This document shows positions 8,812-26,603 of a DNA stretch of 64,000 nucleotides, in pieces. The notes under the pieces are model-generated. The model saw nothing but the letters and a program-made list of their open reading frames with translations, did not search any database and was not told the origin of the DNA. Made by a program: the position numbers and the translations under genes. Position 1 is the stretch's first letter; each line of letters opens with the position of its first letter. Source of the stretch: Solibacillus sp. FSL H8-0538 (GTDB lineage: Bacteria > Bacillota > Bacilli > Bacillales_A > Planococcaceae); assembly GCF_038003525.1 (NCBI RefSeq), contig NZ_JBBOPI010000001.1:1851001-1915000 (forward strand), written 5' to 3'.

Positions 8812-8866
8812 CAGTACGATTAGTAGAGCATCCGAACGTTTGTTTGTTTTTTGGAGGGGAATTTAA

Positions 8867-10837
8867 TTGGCAAAAAATCAGCCAGGGCTCGTCTATAATG
8901 ATGATGCCATTCAAGTATTAGAAGGACTAGAGGCAGTACGAAAACGACCAGGCATGTATATAGGTTCAACTGACGGCAGAGGCCTTCATCACTTAGTTTA
9001 CGAGATTGTCGACAATGCGGTCGATGAAGCACTTGCTGGATTTGGTTCACATATCATTGTAAAAATTCATGCAGATAATAGTATTAGCGTTCGAGACTTT
9101 GGACGCGGTATGCCAACAGGTATGCATAAAATGGGGAAGCCAACACCCGAAGTCATTTTTACCGTTCTTCACGCAGGGGGTAAATTTGGTCAAGGTGGCT
9201 ACAAAACTAGTGGCGGTCTGCACGGTGTTGGTTCTTCCGTTGTCAACGCTTTATCGACATTTTTAGAAGTCACGATTTACCGAGACGGACAAATTCACCG
9301 TCAGCGCTTTGAAAATGGTGGTAAACCCGTAACGTCCCTTGATATCATCGGTAACACGAAGGAAGCGGGTACATTAGTTCATTTCCTTCCTGATGATTCA
9401 ATTTTTTCAGTCACTAAATATAATTATGACACACTTGCTGAGCGCTTACGAGAATCAGCGTTTTTACTGAAAGACTTAAAAATTGAGCTAATTGACGAAC
9501 GTGGTGAAGGTCAACATGATGTATTCCATTATGAAAGCGGTATTGAAGCATTCGTTGCCTATTTAAACGAGGAGAAAGACGTTTTACATCCCGTTAAATA
9601 TGTAGAAGGAACGCAGCAAGAGATTGAAGTTGAGTTTGCCTTCCAGTTTAATGATGGCTACTCCGAAACAATTTTATCATTCGTTAATAATGTCCGTACG
9701 CGTGACGGTGGTACACATGAAACCGGTGCCAAATCAGCAATGACTCGTGTATTTAATGAATATGCGCGTAAAATTGGTTTATTAAAAGAAAAAGACAAAA
9801 ATTTAGAAGGTACAGATATTCGTGAAGGATTAGCTGCGATTGTATCTGTTCGTATTCCGGAAAATATTTTACAGTTTGAAGGCCAGACAAAAGGCAAATT
9901 AGGTACTAGTGAAGCCCGTTCAGCAGTTGATTTAGTTGTGGCTGAAAAACTTTTTTATGTACTTGAAGAGAACGCCGAACTATCTGCTTCATTAGTCCGA
10001 AAAGCCATTCGAGCACAGCAAGTTCGTGAAGCTGCACGTAAAGCACGTGATGATGCACGTAACGGCAAAAAGAAGAAGTCTAGTACGCTACTTTCAGGGA
10101 AGTTAACCCCTGCTCAGTCTCGTAATGCGGCAAGAAATGAATTGTACCTTGTAGAGGGTGACTCTGCAGGTGGTTCTGCAAAACAAGGCCGTGATCGTAG
10201 TTTCCAAGCAATTCTTCCACTGCGCGGTAAGGTTATTAATACCGAAAAAGCAAAGTTGCAAGATATTATGAAAAACGAAGAGATTTCTACAATTATTCAT
10301 ACAATCGGTGCTGGTGTTGGTTCAGACTTCACAGTAGAAGATGCAGCTTATGATAAAGTTGTCATTATGACCGATGCTGATACGGATGGTGCGCACATCC
10401 AAGTGTTGCTGTTAACATTCTTCTACCGCTATATGCGCCCACTTATCGAGGCTGGCAAAGTTTATATTGCACTGCCGCCATTATATAAAGTGTCTAAAGG
10501 CTCTGGGAAGAAGCAAGTCATGGAATATGCGTGGACAGAAAATGAATTACAAGTAGCCATTAAAAATATCGGAAAAGGCTATATCATTCAACGCTATAAA
10601 GGGCTTGGTGAGATGAATGCCGATCAATTATGGGATACAACGATGAATCCTGAAACGCGTACCTTAATACGCGTGAAAATTGATGACGGTGCACGTGCAG
10701 AACGTCGTGTAACAACGTTAATGGGCGATAAAGTAGAGCCTCGCCGTAAATGGATTGAGGCCAACGTAAACTTCGGAATGGAAGATGAAACGAATATTTT
10801 AGAAAATGAATTCATCCAACATGAGGAGGACAAGTAA
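8867..10837 (+). CDS. parE: DNA topoisomerase IV subunit B ParE
   Basis: The 656-residue ATPase subunit of topoisomerase IV, which decatenates daughter chromosomes. It starts with TTG 7 bases after GGAGGGG. GHKL ATPase domain: [13 protein letters not shown] near 46-58, the glycine-rich lid ([14 protein letters not shown]) near 116-129, and the transducer lysine in the QTKGKLG loop. The Toprim domain carries [20 protein letters not shown] near 424-443 and the metal-binding TDADTDGAH near 500-508. The TKGKLGT signature and the immediate downstream parC favour ParE over GyrB, and gyrB is normally at oriC. Stop and parC start are 2 bases apart. Confidence 0.95.
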
Positions 10838-16432: not shown

Positions 16433-17977
16433 TTAGTGTGAAGCGTCTTGAACAGAAATACCTGTTTGAGCTTTAACTTCAACTTCACGGTATTTCGCAG
16501 CGTCAGTTTCTTTCGAAAGTAGAGAACCGATGAATCCACCAAGGAAACCAAGTGGTACAGAAATTAACGCTGGGTTTGTTAACATAATTAACGGATCACC
16601 TACGAAAATTGCTTTCCCTTCAACTGGGTTCCACACGTTTGGTGAAACTGCTACTAAGATTAAAGCTGAAATTAAACCTGTTAACATTGCTGTTACAGCA
16701 CCATTTGAGTTGAAACGTTTCCAGTAAATTGTGTAAATGAGTACTGGTAAGTTTGCAGATGCAGCGATACAGAATGCTAATGATACTAAGAATGCAACGT
16801 TAAGCGTTTGTGCACCTAATGCTAAAAGGATCGATACTACAGAGATTATGATAGATCCAATTCGAGCAGCCAGAACTTGCTCTTTCTCTGTAATTTTACC
16901 TTTTTTAACAATTTGTCCGTAAATATCATGTGAAAGGGCAGATGCACCAGAAAGAACTAAACCTGCTACTACTGCTAAAATTGTTGCGAATGCCACGGCA
17001 CAAACGAATGACATTAAGATGTCGCCACCTAAAGCTTCAGCTAAAAGTGGTGCAGCCATGTTACCGGCTGGGTTCGCTGCCACAATGGCTTCTTTACCTA
17101 CGAATGCTGCAGCACCGAATCCAAGGAAGATTGTTAGTACATAGAAACTACCTACAATCCAAGTAGCCCAAATTACAGATGAACGTGCTGTTTGCGCATC
17201 TTTTACAGTGAAGAAACGCATTAAAATATGTGGAAGACCAGCTGTACCAAGTACTAAAGCGATTAACACAGAAATCGTGTTAATACCATTTGTGTAAAGT
17301 AAGCCTGGTTGTAAATACGCTGCACCAGCATCAGTAGCTGTTGTCATGTGCGAGAACATTTTTAAAATACTAAAATCGAATTTTGATAATACTAAGAATG
17401 AGATAATAATAGTACCAATCATTAATAGACATGCTTTAACGATTTGTACCCAAGAAGTAGCTGTCATACCACCGAATAATACATAAATCGTCATCATGAC
17501 ACCTACTAATAATACCGCTACCCAATAATCAATGCCTAAAAGTAATTGAATAAGTGCACCTGCACCTACTAGCTGTGCAATCATGTAGAAAAGAACAATT
17601 GTAATTGTACTAAGTGCTGCTGTACCACGAACCTTTGATTTATTAAAGCGGGCTGTGATCATATCAGCTAATGTAAATTTACCAAGATTACGTAGTGGCT
17701 CAGCAATGATGTATAACACCACTAAGTATGCTACTAAATAACCGATTGAGAAGAAGAATCCGTCGAATCCGAATAGAGCGACAGAACCCGCGATACCTAA
17801 GAATGAAGCGGCTGATAAATAGTCACCAGCAATCGCTAACCCATTTTGCCAACCTGTTAAGCCACCGCCAGCAGTGTAGAAGTCACTAGCAGATGAAGTT
17901 TTTTTAGATGCCCACCAAGTAATAACTAGTGTAAGCCCTACGATAGTAACGAAGAAGAATATTGCTGCAATACTCAT
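16433..17977 (-). CDS. actP: ActP-like sodium:solute (acetate) symporter, copy 1
   Basis: A 514-residue SSS-family transporter with about 13 membrane helices, closest to cation/acetate symporters ActP and MctC. Visible family segments: SASDFYTAGGGLTGWQNGLAIAGDY near 30-54, the Na+-site region AATSFLG-like ASFLGIAGSVALFGFDGF, and GGMTATSWVQIVKA near 168-181. The C-terminal EVKAQTGISVQDASH is shared nearly word for word with copy 2 at 18.8 kb. Its start overlaps the end of the upstream DUF485 gene by 4 bases (ATGA), the usual YjcH-ActP arrangement. The two copies are about 70% identical by eye, which suggests tandem duplication. Confidence 0.9.
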   Translation of the reverse strand: MSIAAIFFFVTIVGLTLVITWWASKKTSSASDFYTAGGGLTGWQNGLAIAGDYLSAASFLGIAGSVALFGFDGFFFSIGYLVAYLVVLYIIAEPLRNLGKFTLADMITARFNKSKVRGTAALSTITIVLFYMIAQLVGAGALIQLLLGIDYWVAVLLVGVMMTIYVLFGGMTATSWVQIVKACLLMIGTIIISFLVLSKFDFSILKMFSHMTTATDAGAAYLQPGLLYTNGINTISVLIALVLGTAGLPHILMRFFTVKDAQTARSSVIWATWIVGSFYVLTIFLGFGAAAFVGKEAIVAANPAGNMAAPLLAEALGGDILMSFVCAVAFATILAVVAGLVLSGASALSHDIYGQIVKKGKITEKEQVLAARIGSIIISVVSILLALGAQTLNVAFLVSLAFCIAASANLPVLIYTIYWKRFNSNGAVTAMLTGLISALILVAVSPNVWNPVEGKAIFVGDPLIMLTNPALISVPLGFLGGFIGSLLSKETDAAKYREVEVKAQTGISVQDASH

Positions 17978-18300
17978 TTTGAGGCACCCCCTTCGTATTC
18001 AGCGATAATCGCTTTTGCATCACGGTCGAAGCTGTTCGCTTTCGCAACATATAAATGCGCTAAACTCCAAGTCATAATGAACAGCCCAGCTGCGTAAAAC
18101 CATACCCAAGTAATTTCACCGTACGCTTTTTCATGCAGTATTGTTGTGAAAGACGTTAGAACTGGTAATAGCATATACGCTGATAAGAATACTACCGTTA
18201 ACGACCACAAAAATACATTCTTACGTTTTGCTAGTGTTTTGAATGATTCTTGACTTGCGATTTTGTCATAATCAATTTTTGGTTTTTGATTATTCCCCAT
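17974..18300 (-). CDS. DUF485 membrane protein (YjcH-like), copy 1
   Basis: A 108-residue partner of ActP-type symporters. I prefer the ATG at 18300, 6-7 bases after GGGGGT, over the in-frame ATG at 18306 that touches the site. Two membrane helices (about 28-50 and 65-88) with the DUF485 pattern FKTLAKRKNVFLWSLTVVFL and TWVWFYAAGLFIMTW. Function is unproven, but it is always coupled to ActP-like genes. The stop overlaps the symporter start. Confidence 0.88.
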   Translation of the reverse strand: MGNNQKPKIDYDKIASQESFKTLAKRKNVFLWSLTVVFLSAYMLLPVLTSFTTILHEKAYGEITWVWFYAAGLFIMTWSLAHLYVAKANSFDRDAKAIIAEYEGGASK

Positions 18301-18375
18301 AAACATACCCCCATTTGTGATAAGATTTACTGCTTAGTGTGTGTAAAATTCTGTTTCAAGGATTTTACAATTTTC

Positions 18376-18404
18376 ATTCTATTAGAGCGTTCACAAAATT
18401 GCAA
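18376..18404 (-). promoter_or_regulatory. probable promoter of the first DUF485-actP operon
   Basis: On the minus strand TTGCAA (18404-18399), a 17-base spacer and TAGAAT (18381-18376). Two copies of GGTATACCTG lie upstream (18525-18534 and 18651-18660), the first within the dyad ATACCTG...CAGGTAT; these may be regulator sites. Confidence 0.6.
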
Positions 18405-18700
18405 TAGTTTTTGGATAAATTATGCAAAAAAAGTTTCTAGTAAAACAAGTTTTAGCGAGAAAAAATGACACATTTACTAGAATAATAATGCGTTCGATTA
18501 AATGAGAAACTCTTGTAAAGTGTTGGTATACCTGCATTTATACAGGTATTGACAAACGAGAAAGAAGCAATTTCGAGAAAGAAAATACAGTTCTGACAAT
18601 TCTAAATAATTTGTAAAATATTTCACAAAAAAATCGTTTTAATAGAAAAAGGTATACCTGAAAAAGTAATCTTAGTAACGAGAAATAGTAATTTGTAACA

Positions 18701-18752
18701 AAAAAGAGTGCTTAAAAAGTCTTTTTACTGACTTTTTAGGCACTCTTTTTCT
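18701..18752 (-). terminator. terminator of the second ActP operon
   Basis: AAAAAGAGTGC-TTAAAAAGTC pairs with GACTTTTTAGGCACTCTTTTT; T runs on both sides. It directly follows the symporter stop at 18755. Confidence 0.85.
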
Positions 18753-18754
18753 AA

Positions 18755-20305
18755 TTAATGAGAAGCGTCTTGTACAGAAATTCCCGTATTTGCTTTTACA
18801 CGAATTTCTTTATAAACACGTTCTGCTTCTTCAGCAGATACTTTATTCGTTGTTAAGACCGAACCTAAGTAACCTGCTATGAAACCAAGTGGAATCGTAA
18901 TAATTGCAGGTACGGCTAATTTCACTAATGGTTCTCCAACAAAGATTGCATTACCTGTTGTTGACCAAACGTTTGGACCCATTGCACCTAATACTAAGCA
19001 TGACACTAAGCCTGTCACCATTGCAGCTACGGCACCTGTCGAATTAAACTTCTTCCAGTAAATTGTGTATAGAATTACCGGTAAATTTGCGGAAGCTCCA
19101 ATACAGAACGCAAATGATACTAAGAATGATACGTTTAAACTTTGCGCGAATAACGCAAGGATAATAGAAACAATAGCGATAGAGATCGAACCTGTACGCG
19201 CAGCTAACACTTGTTGCTTTTCTGTTAACTTGCCGTCCTTCATAATTTCACCGTAAATATCATGCGAAATTGCAGATGCACCTGTTAATACAAGTCCAGA
19301 TACTACCGCTAAAATCGTTGCAAAGGCTACTGCACAAATAAATGAAAGTAAAATGTTTCCACCAAGGAATTCTGCAAGCAGTGGGGCAGCTGTATTACCT
19401 GCAGCATTTTCCGCAATAATTGCATCAATCCCAACAAAATGCATTGCACCAAAGCCTAGGAAAATTGTTAATGAGAAGAAAATTGCAGTAATCCACGTTG
19501 TCCAAGAAATTGATGCACGTGCTGTTTTTGCATCTTTAACTGTAAAGAAGCGCATTAAAATATGTGGTAAACCTGATGTACCAAGTACCAATGCCATCAT
19601 CATAGACACTGAATCAATTGTTGACGTATATTTCACGCCAGGCACTAAATATTTTTCGCCGTGATCTGCAGAAATCGTATTAAACATTGTTACTAAATTA
19701 AAGTCGAACTTTTGGAACACTAAAAACGCAAGTAGGGTAGTACCAAATAATAATAAACCTGCTTTAATAATTTGTACCCAACTCGTTGCAGTCATCCCAC
19801 CAAATAATACATATGTCGTCATCATTACGCCGACAATTAATACAGCGATCCAGTAATCAATACCAAATAGAAGCTTAATTAATGCACCTGCACCTACTAG
19901 CTGTGCAATCATATATAAAATAACAATAATAATCGTTCCTGTTGCGGCAACCCCGCGGATACGTTTTTCATTGAAACGCGAAGTCAGCATATCTGCTAAA
20001 GTATAGCGGCCAAGATTTCGCATAGGTTCTGCAATTATATATAGAAGAACTAAATTCGCTACTACATAACCAACCGAAAAGAAGAACCCGTCAAAGCCCG
20101 TTAAAGCGATCGCCCCGGATACGCCTAGGAATGCAGCTGCAGATAAGTAATCTCCCGCAATCGCAAAGCCATTTTGCCAGCCCTTAAGACCGCCACCAGC
20201 TGTATAGAAATCACTCGCAGAAGAAGTTTGCTTCGCTGCGATGTATGTAACGATTAATGTTAAACCAACTATCCCTAAAAAGAATCCTGCTGATACTAAA
20301 TTCAT
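18755..20305 (-). CDS. actP: ActP-like sodium:solute (acetate) symporter, copy 2
   Basis: A 516-residue paralogue of the preceding symporter with the same ~13-helix SSS fold and the same marker segments (SASDFYTAGGGLKGWQNGFAIAGDY, GGMTATSWVQIIKA, RVKANTGISVQDASH). It overlaps the upstream DUF485 stop by 4 bases. Differences from copy 1 cluster in loops and in the extracellular part near 205-235, so substrate affinity or regulation may differ. Monocarboxylate uptake is inferred from family and partner gene. Confidence 0.9.
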   Translation of the reverse strand: MNLVSAGFFLGIVGLTLIVTYIAAKQTSSASDFYTAGGGLKGWQNGFAIAGDYLSAAAFLGVSGAIALTGFDGFFFSVGYVVANLVLLYIIAEPMRNLGRYTLADMLTSRFNEKRIRGVAATGTIIIVILYMIAQLVGAGALIKLLFGIDYWIAVLIVGVMMTTYVLFGGMTATSWVQIIKAGLLLFGTTLLAFLVFQKFDFNLVTMFNTISADHGEKYLVPGVKYTSTIDSVSMMMALVLGTSGLPHILMRFFTVKDAKTARASISWTTWITAIFFSLTIFLGFGAMHFVGIDAIIAENAAGNTAAPLLAEFLGGNILLSFICAVAFATILAVVSGLVLTGASAISHDIYGEIMKDGKLTEKQQVLAARTGSISIAIVSIILALFAQSLNVSFLVSFAFCIGASANLPVILYTIYWKKFNSTGAVAAMVTGLVSCLVLGAMGPNVWSTTGNAIFVGEPLVKLAVPAIITIPLGFIAGYLGSVLTTNKVSAEEAERVYKEIRVKANTGISVQDASH

Positions 20306-20646
20306 CCACGTGCACCTGCTTTCTCATATTCGGCAATTACTGCAGCCGCTTCCTTATCAAATTTCGCTGCCATTTTCGTATAAAGCGTACAAAGCGCAAT
20401 CGTCATAATGAAAAGGGCCAATGCATAAACCCAAACCCACGTAATGCTGCCAACTGCTTTCTGTTGTAATACAGAAGTAAACGCTAAAATCGGTAAAAAG
20501 ATGTAAAATGTTAAAAATGAAGCGGCTACACTAAATAAAAACGTATTTTTCTTTTTAACAAACTTGTTAAATGAATCCATACGATCAATCGCAGCATAAT
20601 CAATTGGTTGTACAATTTGCTTTTCTGTTAAACCTACATTCGTCAT
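20302..20646 (-). CDS. DUF485 membrane protein (YjcH-like), copy 2
   Basis: 114 residues with two membrane helices and the segments FNKFVKKKNTFLFSVAASFLTF and ITWVWVYALALFIMT, as in copy 1. ATG follows AGGGGGAATTGAA. It is the first gene of a two-gene operon with the ActP paralogue. Confidence 0.88.
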   Translation of the reverse strand: MTNVGLTEKQIVQPIDYAAIDRMDSFNKFVKKKNTFLFSVAASFLTFYIFLPILAFTSVLQQKAVGSITWVWVYALALFIMTIALCTLYTKMAAKFDKEAAAVIAEYEKAGARG

Positions 20647-22615: not shown

Positions 22616-22739
22616 GTATATGCCCCCTTCACTTCCTTATACAATATCTGAAATTGGGACATGGTGCAAATTCCTATTATTACTTAACGTCTGATTAGTT
22701 CAAAACCTTATTGTATTTGGTTCAACACCATAACTTGGG

Positions 22740-22868
22740 GTTGATTTCCGTTCTGGCTGGACGCTTTCCAGGGGGCGTTCGATGAGCCGCTTCCCTCGCT
22801 ATGCTCAGTCCAGGGTCTCATCTAGAACGCTAATCCCCTAGGAGTCGCCAGCCGCCACTCCAATCAAC
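22740..22868 (-). repeat. R3 palindromic element (solo copy)
   Basis: The 129-bp GC-rich segment begins GTTGATTTCCGTTCTGG and ends CCGCCACTCCAATCAAC, the reverse of the R3 layout inside the IS at 4.1 kb. No transposase or IS end is next to it. The surrounding stretches 22616-22739 and 22869-23045 hold nothing else I can name. Confidence 0.7.
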
Positions 22869-23045
22869 AATCATCCTGCTCTAGTTGTTATCCCAGTATT
22901 TTGGTGATGAGCCTTTTATTTTTCTTTTCATTTATAAATGTAATAGCTTCTATAATTCTTTTATACTTTGGATTAAAAGCACTCAATAAACTTTTGCTTT
23001 GATTGGCATGCTTAGTTAATAATCAGCTCCTCTTCAGAATAGCAT

Positions 23046-23143: not shown

Positions 23144-26100
23144 TTAATTATTTTGCTCAAGGCATTGGTAAACCGCCATCATATCTCGTTTATTTAACTC
23201 CCGAATACGAATAAAAATTGGAATATCTGCAACAGCCTCAATAGTTACGCTTTCAGCAACTACATCACTTACTTTGCCAGTTAGCCATGTTTTTACTGGT
23301 ATCCCTTCAACAAGCTCCCGAAGGCCATGCTCATTGATGCCACTTGCATAACAACTTACACAAGGAATTGTTAATTTAAACACGCCATCATGGAGCCCGT
23401 CTTCCGAAATTACTTTCTTTCCTTTACAGAATGGACATGGCTCGCTTTTTTTAATTTTATTAATTTGGGTAACTAATTTTTTGTAACCAAATACTTCATA
23501 AACATACGTCAGTTTTTTGTATTTCCCATTGGTGAAATACTTATCAATGATGGTTTCTCTCGTTTCGGTGATATTATCAAAATCACAGATTGTGACCCGA
23601 TTATTAAGGCTGATGGATTCGATATTGCCGCTAATACTGTCCCAAAATGGCAGAACATTTTGTAACACCACTTCATAGTGGGCAAAGCTTGCCTGCTCCA
23701 GCTCAAGCATTTTCAGCGCGACTTGTGTTTCCCGAGGCAAAAGGGAGACATCTTCCGTCAAAGCCATAGCGCCTCCGACAATGGCCTTCATTTTTTCTAG
23801 TAGCTGTAAATTCCCAACGGTTTGCATCACTTGATCAAGAGGCTGTTGAATAATGTCCCGTATATCCGTGTCACCAAATTTCAGCTTTTTATGATGATTC
23901 AGTACGGTTCCTTGACAGATTGGACAAGTAATCATTTCTTTGGATTCTTTGATTTGCTCTTTAATAATCGATTTCGAAACAAATATATAGCGCCCAATGA
24001 GGAGATTAAAGCCTTCCCAAGTCCTCGACGCCTTGCCTGCTTTATCATAGAATGACTTTTCCCAATACCCATATAAAAAGGTATGTTTTTCTGCTTCCGT
24101 CATGTCATTGTAACTTTTACTTATATCCTGCCCGAGCTCATTTTTAATCTCATCAAAGAGGAATTGCAATTTTGGATATTGATAGAATTTTAAAACCTCC
24201 ATCACGTCTGGATGAAGTAAGCCATCCCAAAATGGCACGGTTTTGTCCTGAATTACAATATCTATATCAAATTTCTCAATCACTTGGCGGCCCGAGCAGG
24301 ATGGACAATGGTTTTGCTGATTATAGAAATCGAAGCTATACGTATCTTTATTGGTTGGATGCGCCGCGACTATATGGTTGATCAAGCCGCCCATTTCATA
24401 GAGAAAACTATATTGACTATACAAGTGACGTTCCAGATCAATGGCGATGACGGGTGCAATTGTATCCGATTCGTATTCACCATAAATTAAACGAGCCATT
24501 GATGATAAGCTTTTTAAGATGCCGCCCTTATAGATGTTTTCTGCATTATTAAAATAGGCAATTTGATTTTCTTTTAAATAGTTAATTCCATTTTGTGACT
24601 TTAGTGTTGAAGAAATTTGCAATGGAGCAACTGTAGCTGCACTGTTTTGCCTGCGATAATAATCATTATGACTGACAACATCAAGGTGCTCCACAGGTAC
24701 AGGCTGTCTTTTACCAAAATCAACGATAAAATCAGAGTTTTCTAGCATATAAGCATTATGTTCAATCAATATCATGGAGACAGATTCATCCGTCAGAATG
24801 TCCCTGATGCTATCAATGAATTGATTTAAAATATTTTGTGATAAACCTTTTGAAGGCTCGTCAAAAATAAAAAGCGTATGTGGGTTTCTTGAGTTGGCAA
24901 ACAGCTCTGAAACTAAATGGACACATTGAAATTCACCCGTCGATAAGGACTGTGTTTTTCTTTCCAACGTCAAATACCCAAGTCCAAGTTTAATCAATAA
25001 GCTCAAACGTTTATGCGCGATGTCTTCGTTTGGCAGTTCATCAATAATATCTTCAATCGAGCGCTGAAAAATATCTTCAATATCTTCACTATATTTTGTG
25101 AGTTTCTTTTTAATATCAAGAAAAGTCGCAACAGTTGACCGACTAGTAATCGATTGGTTCCGATCTTGCCCAACCATGACCAGTTTATCTTTTGGATAGC
25201 GCTTCAGAAAATCTTTGGCCATACACTCATTGACAAGTGTCGATTTTCCACATCCAGACTCCCCCGTAAAAGTGACAATTCTATTTTGGGGAATCTGTAT
25301 CTCAGCCATTTGAATATTACGACAGTAAAGATCCTGAAATTGATAGTATTCTGTGGGTATAGCCCGATTTCGTTCCCAAGTAATTGGTTTTGGACGTGGT
25401 GATTCTTCAACAATTTTCCCGCCGTATTTACCACTACCAGGCCCAAAGAACAATTGCTCATTCGTTGTGTCGAGCACCGTGTCAGAATGGTCAATAAGCC
25501 AAATTTGATTTTTATAGCCCAATTGTTGAATCTGTTCTAAAATTCCTAATAACGTTTGGTGATCTAGCCCCACGGAGATTTCATCAATTATAATGACCGT
25601 ATTTTCACTTGTTGCCATGAATTCTGCCAAATAAAGTCGTGTTAATTCTCCACCTGACAATGTTCCCATAATGCGATTTAAAGTTAAGTAACCAATATTC
25701 ATATTGATGATATTTTTAAGAATATGTTGTTTAGCTTCACTAATATTTAAAACGTCTGCTAGTGAAAAAATGGTCTCAATGCATAAGTCGTTAATATCGG
25801 AAATATTCTGTGGTTTATCAAATAATTCAATCATATATTGCCCGGCTTCTTGATTATAGCGCTTCCCCTTACACTTAGGACATTCGATATTTTTAGTAGT
25901 TCCGCGACCTTTACAAGCTGGACACCAACCTAATTCATTATTAAACGAAAAAACTTCCGGAGAAAGATTATATTTTTCTGCAAGAGTTACACGTATCTCA
26001 GTAAACACGCCCGTATGTGTACCCATTGTTGAACGTGGATTGGAAGAAATTGATGACCTTCCTAGAAAAAGTACAAGAGGCATTTCTTCCATCTTGATGG

Positions 26101-26314
26101 CACTAAAATTGGTTTCCATAATAGTAGGAAATAAATACTGATATTCAGCTTTTGGCAATAAGGAAACGAGACGCTTCTTAGATTCTTCCCCAATAGTTAG
26201 ACAAAAAGTTGTTTTACCAGATCCAGACAAACCAGCAATTCCTAACGATTCCTCTCCTGGTAGTACTGCATCTAATTTGTTAATATTGTTCGCAATTAAT
26301 TGATTTATTTTCAT
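23144..26314 (-). CDS. UvrA-like ABC ATPase with two intact and one decayed ATPase-like section
   Basis: 1056 residues. ATG at 26314 follows GAGAGGAG; the GTG seven codons upstream overlaps that site. Half 1: Walker A GLSGSGKTT (28-36), zinc module CPAC...CPKC (131-148), signature LSGGE (219-223), Walker B IIIDE (241-245). Half 2: Walker A GESGCGKST (351-359), altered signature LSTGE (457-461), Walker B FIFDE (482-486). The last ~550 residues contain more Cys pairs (CPSC 670, CPIC 797, CPFC 960, CVSC 985) and a stretch LLPRETQVALKMLEL where a signature would be, but no Walker A. Housekeeping UvrA is ~950 residues with a different order, so this is a paralogue, of the type seen in resistance or self-protection roles. 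The actual role is unknown; no uvrB or biosynthetic gene is nearby. Confidence 0.8.
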   Translation of the reverse strand: MKINQLIANNINKLDAVLPGEESLGIAGLSGSGKTTFCLTIGEESKKRLVSLLPKAEYQYLFPTIMETNFSAIKMEEMPLVLFLGRSSISSNPRSTMGTHTGVFTEIRVTLAEKYNLSPEVFSFNNELGWCPACKGRGTTKNIECPKCKGKRYNQEAGQYMIELFDKPQNISDINDLCIETIFSLADVLNISEAKQHILKNIINMNIGYLTLNRIMGTLSGGELTRLYLAEFMATSENTVIIIDEISVGLDHQTLLGILEQIQQLGYKNQIWLIDHSDTVLDTTNEQLFFGPGSGKYGGKIVEESPRPKPITWERNRAIPTEYYQFQDLYCRNIQMAEIQIPQNRIVTFTGESGCGKSTLVNECMAKDFLKRYPKDKLVMVGQDRNQSITSRSTVATFLDIKKKLTKYSEDIEDIFQRSIEDIIDELPNEDIAHKRLSLLIKLGLGYLTLERKTQSLSTGEFQCVHLVSELFANSRNPHTLFIFDEPSKGLSQNILNQFIDSIRDILTDESVSMILIEHNAYMLENSDFIVDFGKRQPVPVEHLDVVSHNDYYRRQNSAATVAPLQISSTLKSQNGINYLKENQIAYFNNAENIYKGGILKSLSSMARLIYGEYESDTIAPVIAIDLERHLYSQYSFLYEMGGLINHIVAAHPTNKDTYSFDFYNQQNHCPSCSGRQVIEKFDIDIVIQDKTVPFWDGLLHPDVMEVLKFYQYPKLQFLFDEIKNELGQDISKSYNDMTEAEKHTFLYGYWEKSFYDKAGKASRTWEGFNLLIGRYIFVSKSIIKEQIKESKEMITCPICQGTVLNHHKKLKFGDTDIRDIIQQPLDQVMQTVGNLQLLEKMKAIVGGAMALTEDVSLLPRETQVALKMLELEQASFAHYEVVLQNVLPFWDSISGNIESISLNNRVTICDFDNITETRETIIDKYFTNGKYKKLTYVYEVFGYKKLVTQINKIKKSEPCPFCKGKKVISEDGLHDGVFKLTIPCVSCYASGINEHGLRELVEGIPVKTWLTGKVSDVVAESVTIEAVADIPIFIRIRELNKRDMMAVYQCLEQNN

Positions 26315-26603
26315 AGCGATCTCCTCTCCACTCACTAATTATAGTATTGCCATGTTAGTGAATCTACAAATGAATTTGTTGTGTTACTTGTTTCAGGTGT
26401 ACTTGTTTAGTTTATTGCTATGAACTGCCGCGATGCACAGGTGCAGAAAAAACGTCCCTTACGTTAAATGAAGTAAATACGTAAAGTTAAGGTCAAATTG
26501 CCTAGTCAGTTGTCAATTCGCAGCGTAAAATTTTTGAAAATGCTGACGCTTTCCCCTACTTCATTGCGTCTAACAGTATATAATAGACCTATGGAGGTAG
26601 ATT

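Follow-up and report, generated by a model that had tools for sequence, protein, structure and literature searches.

The window, by which we mean the whole 64,000-nucleotide stretch of the Solibacillus sp. FSL H8-0538 genome that was analyzed, carries on its reverse strand a gene for a long UvrA-like protein (Table 1). The open reading frame extends from 23144 to 26335 and has an in-frame GTG at 26335; the ATG at 26314 was taken as the start because a likely ribosome-binding site precedes it and because the alignment of relatives begins at that methionine, which upholds the 1056-residue length given in the initial annotation. Just upstream is a block common to the window and many relatives of other genera, made up of a palindrome (ACAAATTCATTTGT, 26366-26379), a -10-like TAACAT (26352-26357), and a short leader, and this block probably serves as the promoter. 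No LexA-type box was seen upstream of the gene, and SOS control was dropped for that reason; a search for known RNA elements at the gene likewise found none.

Table 1. Features of the UvrA-like gene and its upstream region, in window positions.
Feature	Residues	Position	Strand
UvrA-like gene, whole coding sequence with stop	1056 aa	23144..26314	-
Ribosome-binding site GGAGAGGAG, before ATG 26314 (putative)		26321..26329	-
Conserved upstream block: palindrome ACAAATTCATTTGT, TAACAT, GGCAATACTA		26337..26380	-
ABC half I, assigned to ABC-I type, without UvrB-binding or insertion domain	1-310	25385..26314	-
Walker A of half I, GLSGSGKT, invariant in 81 members	28-35	26210..26233	-
Q-loop position of half I, Lys/Arg for Gln in 81/81	86	26057..26059	-
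Compact Cys4 of half I at the ABC-I insertion-domain position	C131/C134/C145/C148	25871..25924	-
Signature I, LSGGE	219-223	25646..25660	-
ABC half II, zinc module absent	319-556	24647..25360	-
Walker A of half II, GESGCGKS	351-358	25241..25264	-
Signature II, LSTGE; LS[TN]GE in 81/81	457-461	24932..24946	-
C-terminal section without ATPase	557-1056	23147..24646	-
UvrA ABC-I zinc-module-2/insertion-domain block	658-874	23693..24343	-
Insertion (predicted DNA-binding) domain, between C673 and C797	674-796	23927..24295	-
Signature-like helix LLPRETQVALKMLEL	858-872	23699..23743	-
Cys4, zinc-module-3-like, weak evidence	C960/C963/C985/C988	23351..23437	-

The first 556 residues hold two ABC halves in which Walker A, signature, Walker B (residues 241 to 245 and 482 to 486), and H-loop are all complete, as in housekeeping UvrA, and here the intact Walker motifs and the LSTGE second signature read by the initial annotation were confirmed. 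What this N-terminal pair lacks is equally informative. About 104 residues separate Walker A from the first CxxC in half I, a spacing like that of class II UvrA, whereas in the genome's own UvrA, which has a UvrB-binding domain, Walker A lies 243 residues from the CxxC of zinc module 2; no UvrB-binding domain is present between these elements in the N-terminal pair. In half I, one CxxC pair follows the other after only 10 residues, where UvrA accommodates an insertion domain of about 125, and half II has no CxxC, so zinc module 3 is missing from ABC-II. The CxxC modules had been placed in the C-terminal section, which is correct, but half I also carries such a cluster. The Q-loop position of half I was located by alignment through NPRST, and both degenerate features of the pair (Lys or Arg in this Q-loop and the LS[T/N]GE signature) map to the proximal ATP site, based on the published composition of the proximal and distal UvrA sites (PMC6486640). 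Because both oddities sit on the proximal site while the distal site is consensus, the sequence suggests that the pair works as an asymmetric ATPase.

Which half is which deserves comment. Half I contains the motifs NPRSTxGT, FSFN[NSD], GPGxGxxGG, and DE-S[IV]GL in 76 to 81 of the 81 members, motifs whose restriction to ABC-I was defined against 30 UvrAs compared. Profile scores favor ABC-II slightly for both halves, probably on account of the missing insertion domain; a swapped order, raised by these bit scores, was rejected since the diagnostic motifs give ABC-I for half I. A quick tree returned the halves as ABC-I and ABC-II, but approximately unbiased (AU) tests reject no alternative placement (p 0.17-0.34), such that trees leave the assignment unsettled. 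With moderate confidence, then, and by diagnostic motifs, we read the order as ABC-I followed by ABC-II. That is the usual order, and the claim of a novel one in the initial annotation does not hold for the N-terminal pair; new is the placement of the insertion domain, which is missing up front, together with zinc module 3, and lies instead in the ATPase-dead tail.

This tail of some 500 residues has CxxC motifs at 670, 797, 960, and 985 and no GxxGxGK[ST], that is, no Walker A, as first described. Residues 658 to 874 match positions 265 to 483 of the UvrA model TIGR00630 (E 2.4e-17), and the tail scores 90 against a UvrA profile and 79 against a class II UvrA profile, for which column-shuffled controls that kept the CxxC motifs reached at most 56; PF17755 matches part of the insertion domain weakly. 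The predicted structures are of moderate quality (mean pLDDT 64 and 68); the tail-only model, with the mean of 68, is mostly above 80 over residues 678 to 878. When this model was searched against known structures, the 37 best matches were UvrA chains, hits were solely to UvrA up to E 0.0084, and the first non-UvrA match appeared at E 0.23. Judged by profile and model together, the tail is derived from UvrA. The profile and structure comparisons proposed in the initial annotation thus bear out a UvrA relative of distinct architecture whose third section descends from an ATPase, and they rule out an unrelated tail domain, which that annotation had named as the finding that would undo it; hits to Lar, DnaJ, and anti-TRAP look driven by the CxxC motifs.

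Other parts of the tail are harder to read. The segment at the place of a signature, LLPRETQ, is plausibly signature-like: in the tail model, the helix LLPRETQVALKMLEL is followed by a strand, a helix, a strand, and a helix, the order expected after an ABC signature, with a Walker-B-like strand EVVLQ and a later strand VTIC, but the profile alignment gives no confirmation, so this point of the initial annotation is favored by predicted secondary structure only. The Cys4 at 960 to 988 falls at the expected place of zinc module 3 and scores 36.0 against it, compared with a control maximum of 35.4, making the identification marginal. Third and fourth full ABC halves in the tail are not supported, as the segments 575 to 664, 840 to 960, and 1000 to 1056 gave no significant profile match.

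The layout is conserved. A scan of 84,980 genomes recovered at least 80 full-length relatives, and those listed are all from Bacillales, at 79 to 89% identity and 1054 to 1062 residues. Length and order of parts are the same in these relatives, the tail is full-length in 80 of the 80 listed, its cysteines are invariant in 65 aligned rows, and its column identity is near that of the ATPase halves. Such constancy of size, layout, and tail cysteines shows that the architecture is not a product of chance or of decay in a single copy. With a tail nearly as conserved as the ATPase halves, the word “decayed,” applied earlier to the third section, was misleading.

Within the window's family, the gene occurs in 25 of 121 genomes and is interrupted by stops in 2 of those; about 11 of the 399 genomes from the class yielded a full-length match to the tail, and sampling of the phylum's other classes yielded none. 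Two tail remnants were also seen (L103:1501-1680 and L108:1501-1767), one with stop codons and the other an 89-residue match in a 100-residue frame in a genome that also holds a full copy; we read these as local decay or duplication. In 25 host genomes, we compared the identity of the housekeeping UvrA to that of the window genome. The UvrA-like protein is the more similar of the two in Paenibacillus selenitireducens (89% versus 74% for housekeeping UvrA), P. castaneae (87% versus 73%), and Shimazuella (82% versus 69%); in contrast, the housekeeping protein is the closer one in Lysinibacillus xylanilyticus (86% versus 82%). The phylogeny suggested at the outset places the window protein with Paenibacillus members in a supported clade. 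Since the UvrA-like identity often exceeds that of the hosts' housekeeping UvrA, and given this clade, sequence comparison indicates that the gene has moved horizontally between families. As for vehicles, IMG/VR contigs yielded no match, no phage record contains the greater part of the gene, and the only plasmid carrying it is a megaplasmid of Niallia taxi; the flanking gene occurs in too few relatives to allow an empty-site comparison.

The neighborhood offers a functional clue. An ArsR gene (HTH_5) and an SRPBCC gene (AHSA1) both lie directly upstream in 25 of the 80 listed loci, in Paenibacillus, Sporosarcina, Psychrobacillus, Lederbergia, Lysinibacillus, Neobacillus, and Listeria, and this linkage requires 10 changes on the tree. 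These are the only conserved neighbors across the relatives' loci, where neither a biosynthetic cluster nor a resistance gene is consistently linked to the UvrA-like gene. The SRPBCC gene of the pair is absent from the window genome. We sampled 40 Bacilli regions centered on other SRPBCC homologues (L158-L197), and in 11 of them a class II UvrA-type gene (one apparently truncated) comes next on the same strand, 80 to 500 bases downstream of the SRPBCC gene. This recurrence of the pair ahead of class II UvrA genes in 11 of 40 regions independently supports a functional link between ArsR-SRPBCC and UvrA proteins; a literature search on the association returned nothing relevant. Within the sampled regions, ArsR and SRPBCC are sometimes fused into one protein of about 250 residues, and DoxX-like genes follow in other regions.

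How does this protein compare with the UvrAs already described? The genome has a full housekeeping uvrA elsewhere (G000:C1:735905), which scores 1502.6 bits against TIGR00630, whereas the UvrA-like protein scores 265.9 bits, below the cut-off of 729.8; the concern that this gene might be the genome's only uvrA was thereby removed. The two share the ABC-I/ABC-II order, the Walker and signature motifs, and the zinc/insertion-domain block, but only the housekeeping protein has a UvrB-binding domain. Class II UvrAs (UvrA2 of Deinococcus, DrrC, and Ecm16) are closer in kind: they too have two ABC halves without a UvrB-binding domain, are encoded by accessory genes besides the housekeeping uvrA, and, in Bacilli, have the ArsR-SRPBCC pair upstream as well. 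However, they carry the insertion domain, flanked by zinc module 2, in ABC-I, where our protein has this block at 658 to 874 instead, and they have zinc module 3 in ABC-II, for which it offers only the weak Cys4 of the tail. Our protein is also some 500 residues longer, with its insertion domain in that added part without ATP sites; its proximal site is degenerate, and identity in the ABC cores is about 25 to 28%. A third comparison is PRK00635 (1809 positions), which we take to be the tandem UvrA of Chlamydiales origin. It likewise has more than one UvrA-like copy per chain, but our protein scores only 158.3 bits against a cut-off of 3054, has no ATP sites in its second copy, and is 1056 residues in all. 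The individual ingredients are known, but none of the models in the searched libraries combines a degenerate proximal site with a second copy that has the insertion domain and no ATPase, and we found no paper on this arrangement.

Our best reading is that the protein would be a class II UvrA (DrrC/Ecm16-like) of altered architecture, able to remove small molecules from DNA with no need for UvrB. The proposal in full, to which we give roughly even credence, is of a split-function, UvrB-independent, class II-like UvrA, spread horizontally, in which the use of ATP and the reading of DNA are divided between two fused copies. Copy A (residues 1 to 556) is read as an ABC-I/ABC-II pair of class II type from which the insertion domain and zinc module 3 are gone. 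Copy B (557 to 1056) has no P-loops but keeps a zinc-flanked insertion domain, which the active pair does not. We speculate that copy B, presumably binding both zinc and DNA, senses small molecules that are bound to or intercalated into DNA, and that copy A hydrolyzes ATP, chiefly at the distal site with its consensus motifs (Walker A-II with signature I), leading to remodeling or release of the DNA-bound drug and thereby to tolerance of some DNA-binding natural product. For the class II UvrA Ecm16, binding to DNA, discrimination among drugs, and resistance all depend on the insertion domain, and UvrB is dispensable (PMC10192343); UvrA-like genes also serve as markers of DNA-intercalator clusters (PMC10413001). 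A position downstream of the genes for an ArsR repressor and a ligand-binding SRPBCC protein, taken ancestrally or repeatedly, would fit induction by a small molecule, although several loci have a terminator-like hairpin between the SRPBCC and UvrA-like genes, which counts against this explanation. Also weighing against the proposal are the missing SRPBCC gene in the window genome, the lack of any consistently linked biosynthetic cluster or resistance gene, the unsettled trees, the marginal score of the tail Cys4, and the moderate quality of the models.

The UvrA dimer has four ATP sites and two insertion domains, and the roles of these elements are still being worked out. A more tentative idea, which we consider possible but somewhat doubtful, is that internal duplication has produced a self-contained, asymmetric single-chain UvrA with one consensus ATPase site, in which one copy is the ATP engine and lacks a DNA-reading domain and the other is the DNA reader and lacks ATP sites, so that a single chain may do the work of a dimer. 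With its ATPase pair separated from its insertion domain and only its proximal site degraded, the protein would make the roles of UvrA elements testable in one chain.

Could the protein instead be a lesion-detecting accessory repair factor that backs up the housekeeping UvrA, working together with UvrB/UvrC or alongside them? Homology to UvrA and the retained insertion domain, for which a role in binding damaged DNA has been proposed in UvrA, speak for this, but the UvrB-binding domain and zinc module 1 are absent, the upstream region has no LexA-type box, and the gene is patchy, horizontally moved, and linked to ArsR-SRPBCC and not to repair genes; we consider this role unlikely. An ABC protein acting on RNA or ribosomes, in the manner of ABC-F protection, is very improbable: the halves do match ABC-F and RLI models weakly, as any ABC ATPase of that class would, but the best ABC-F model reaches 65.5 bits against 265.9 for UvrA, and the protein has an insertion domain along with zinc modules of UvrA type. 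We give slightly less credence still to an anti-phage defense ATPase; the gene is accessory and mobile and its ABC core alone matches PADLOC mad3, a MADS defense protein, at 104 bits, but the UvrA match is far stronger, there are no conserved defense neighbors, and the IMG/VR and phage searches gave no support. Least probable of all is that the protein is an ordinary class II UvrA whose tail has decayed and lost its function, since, despite the absent Walker A and possibly no working signatures, the tail is conserved as described above and copy A is without the insertion domain on which class II UvrAs depend.

If the favored reading of a split-function, class II-like UvrA is correct, soil Bacillales would carry a mobile tolerance determinant that has apparently gone unstudied, and ArsR-SRPBCC would be a likely sensor module for UvrA-like genes, one that could aid the discovery of new DNA-binding natural products.

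Elsewhere in the window, a perfect LexA-type box (CGAACGTTTGTTTG, 8833-8846) lies just ahead of a gene at 8867 that reads like a topoisomerase IV subunit, and sequence reading identifies two successive paralogous pairs at 16433 to 20646, each a sodium:solute symporter-like gene with a small membrane protein gene. A dispersed repeat of about 136 bp (22735-22870), containing GGCGACTCCTAGGGG and GGAAATCAACCCC, matches 46 places in the genome, with one near-identical copy at G000:C1:1191178.
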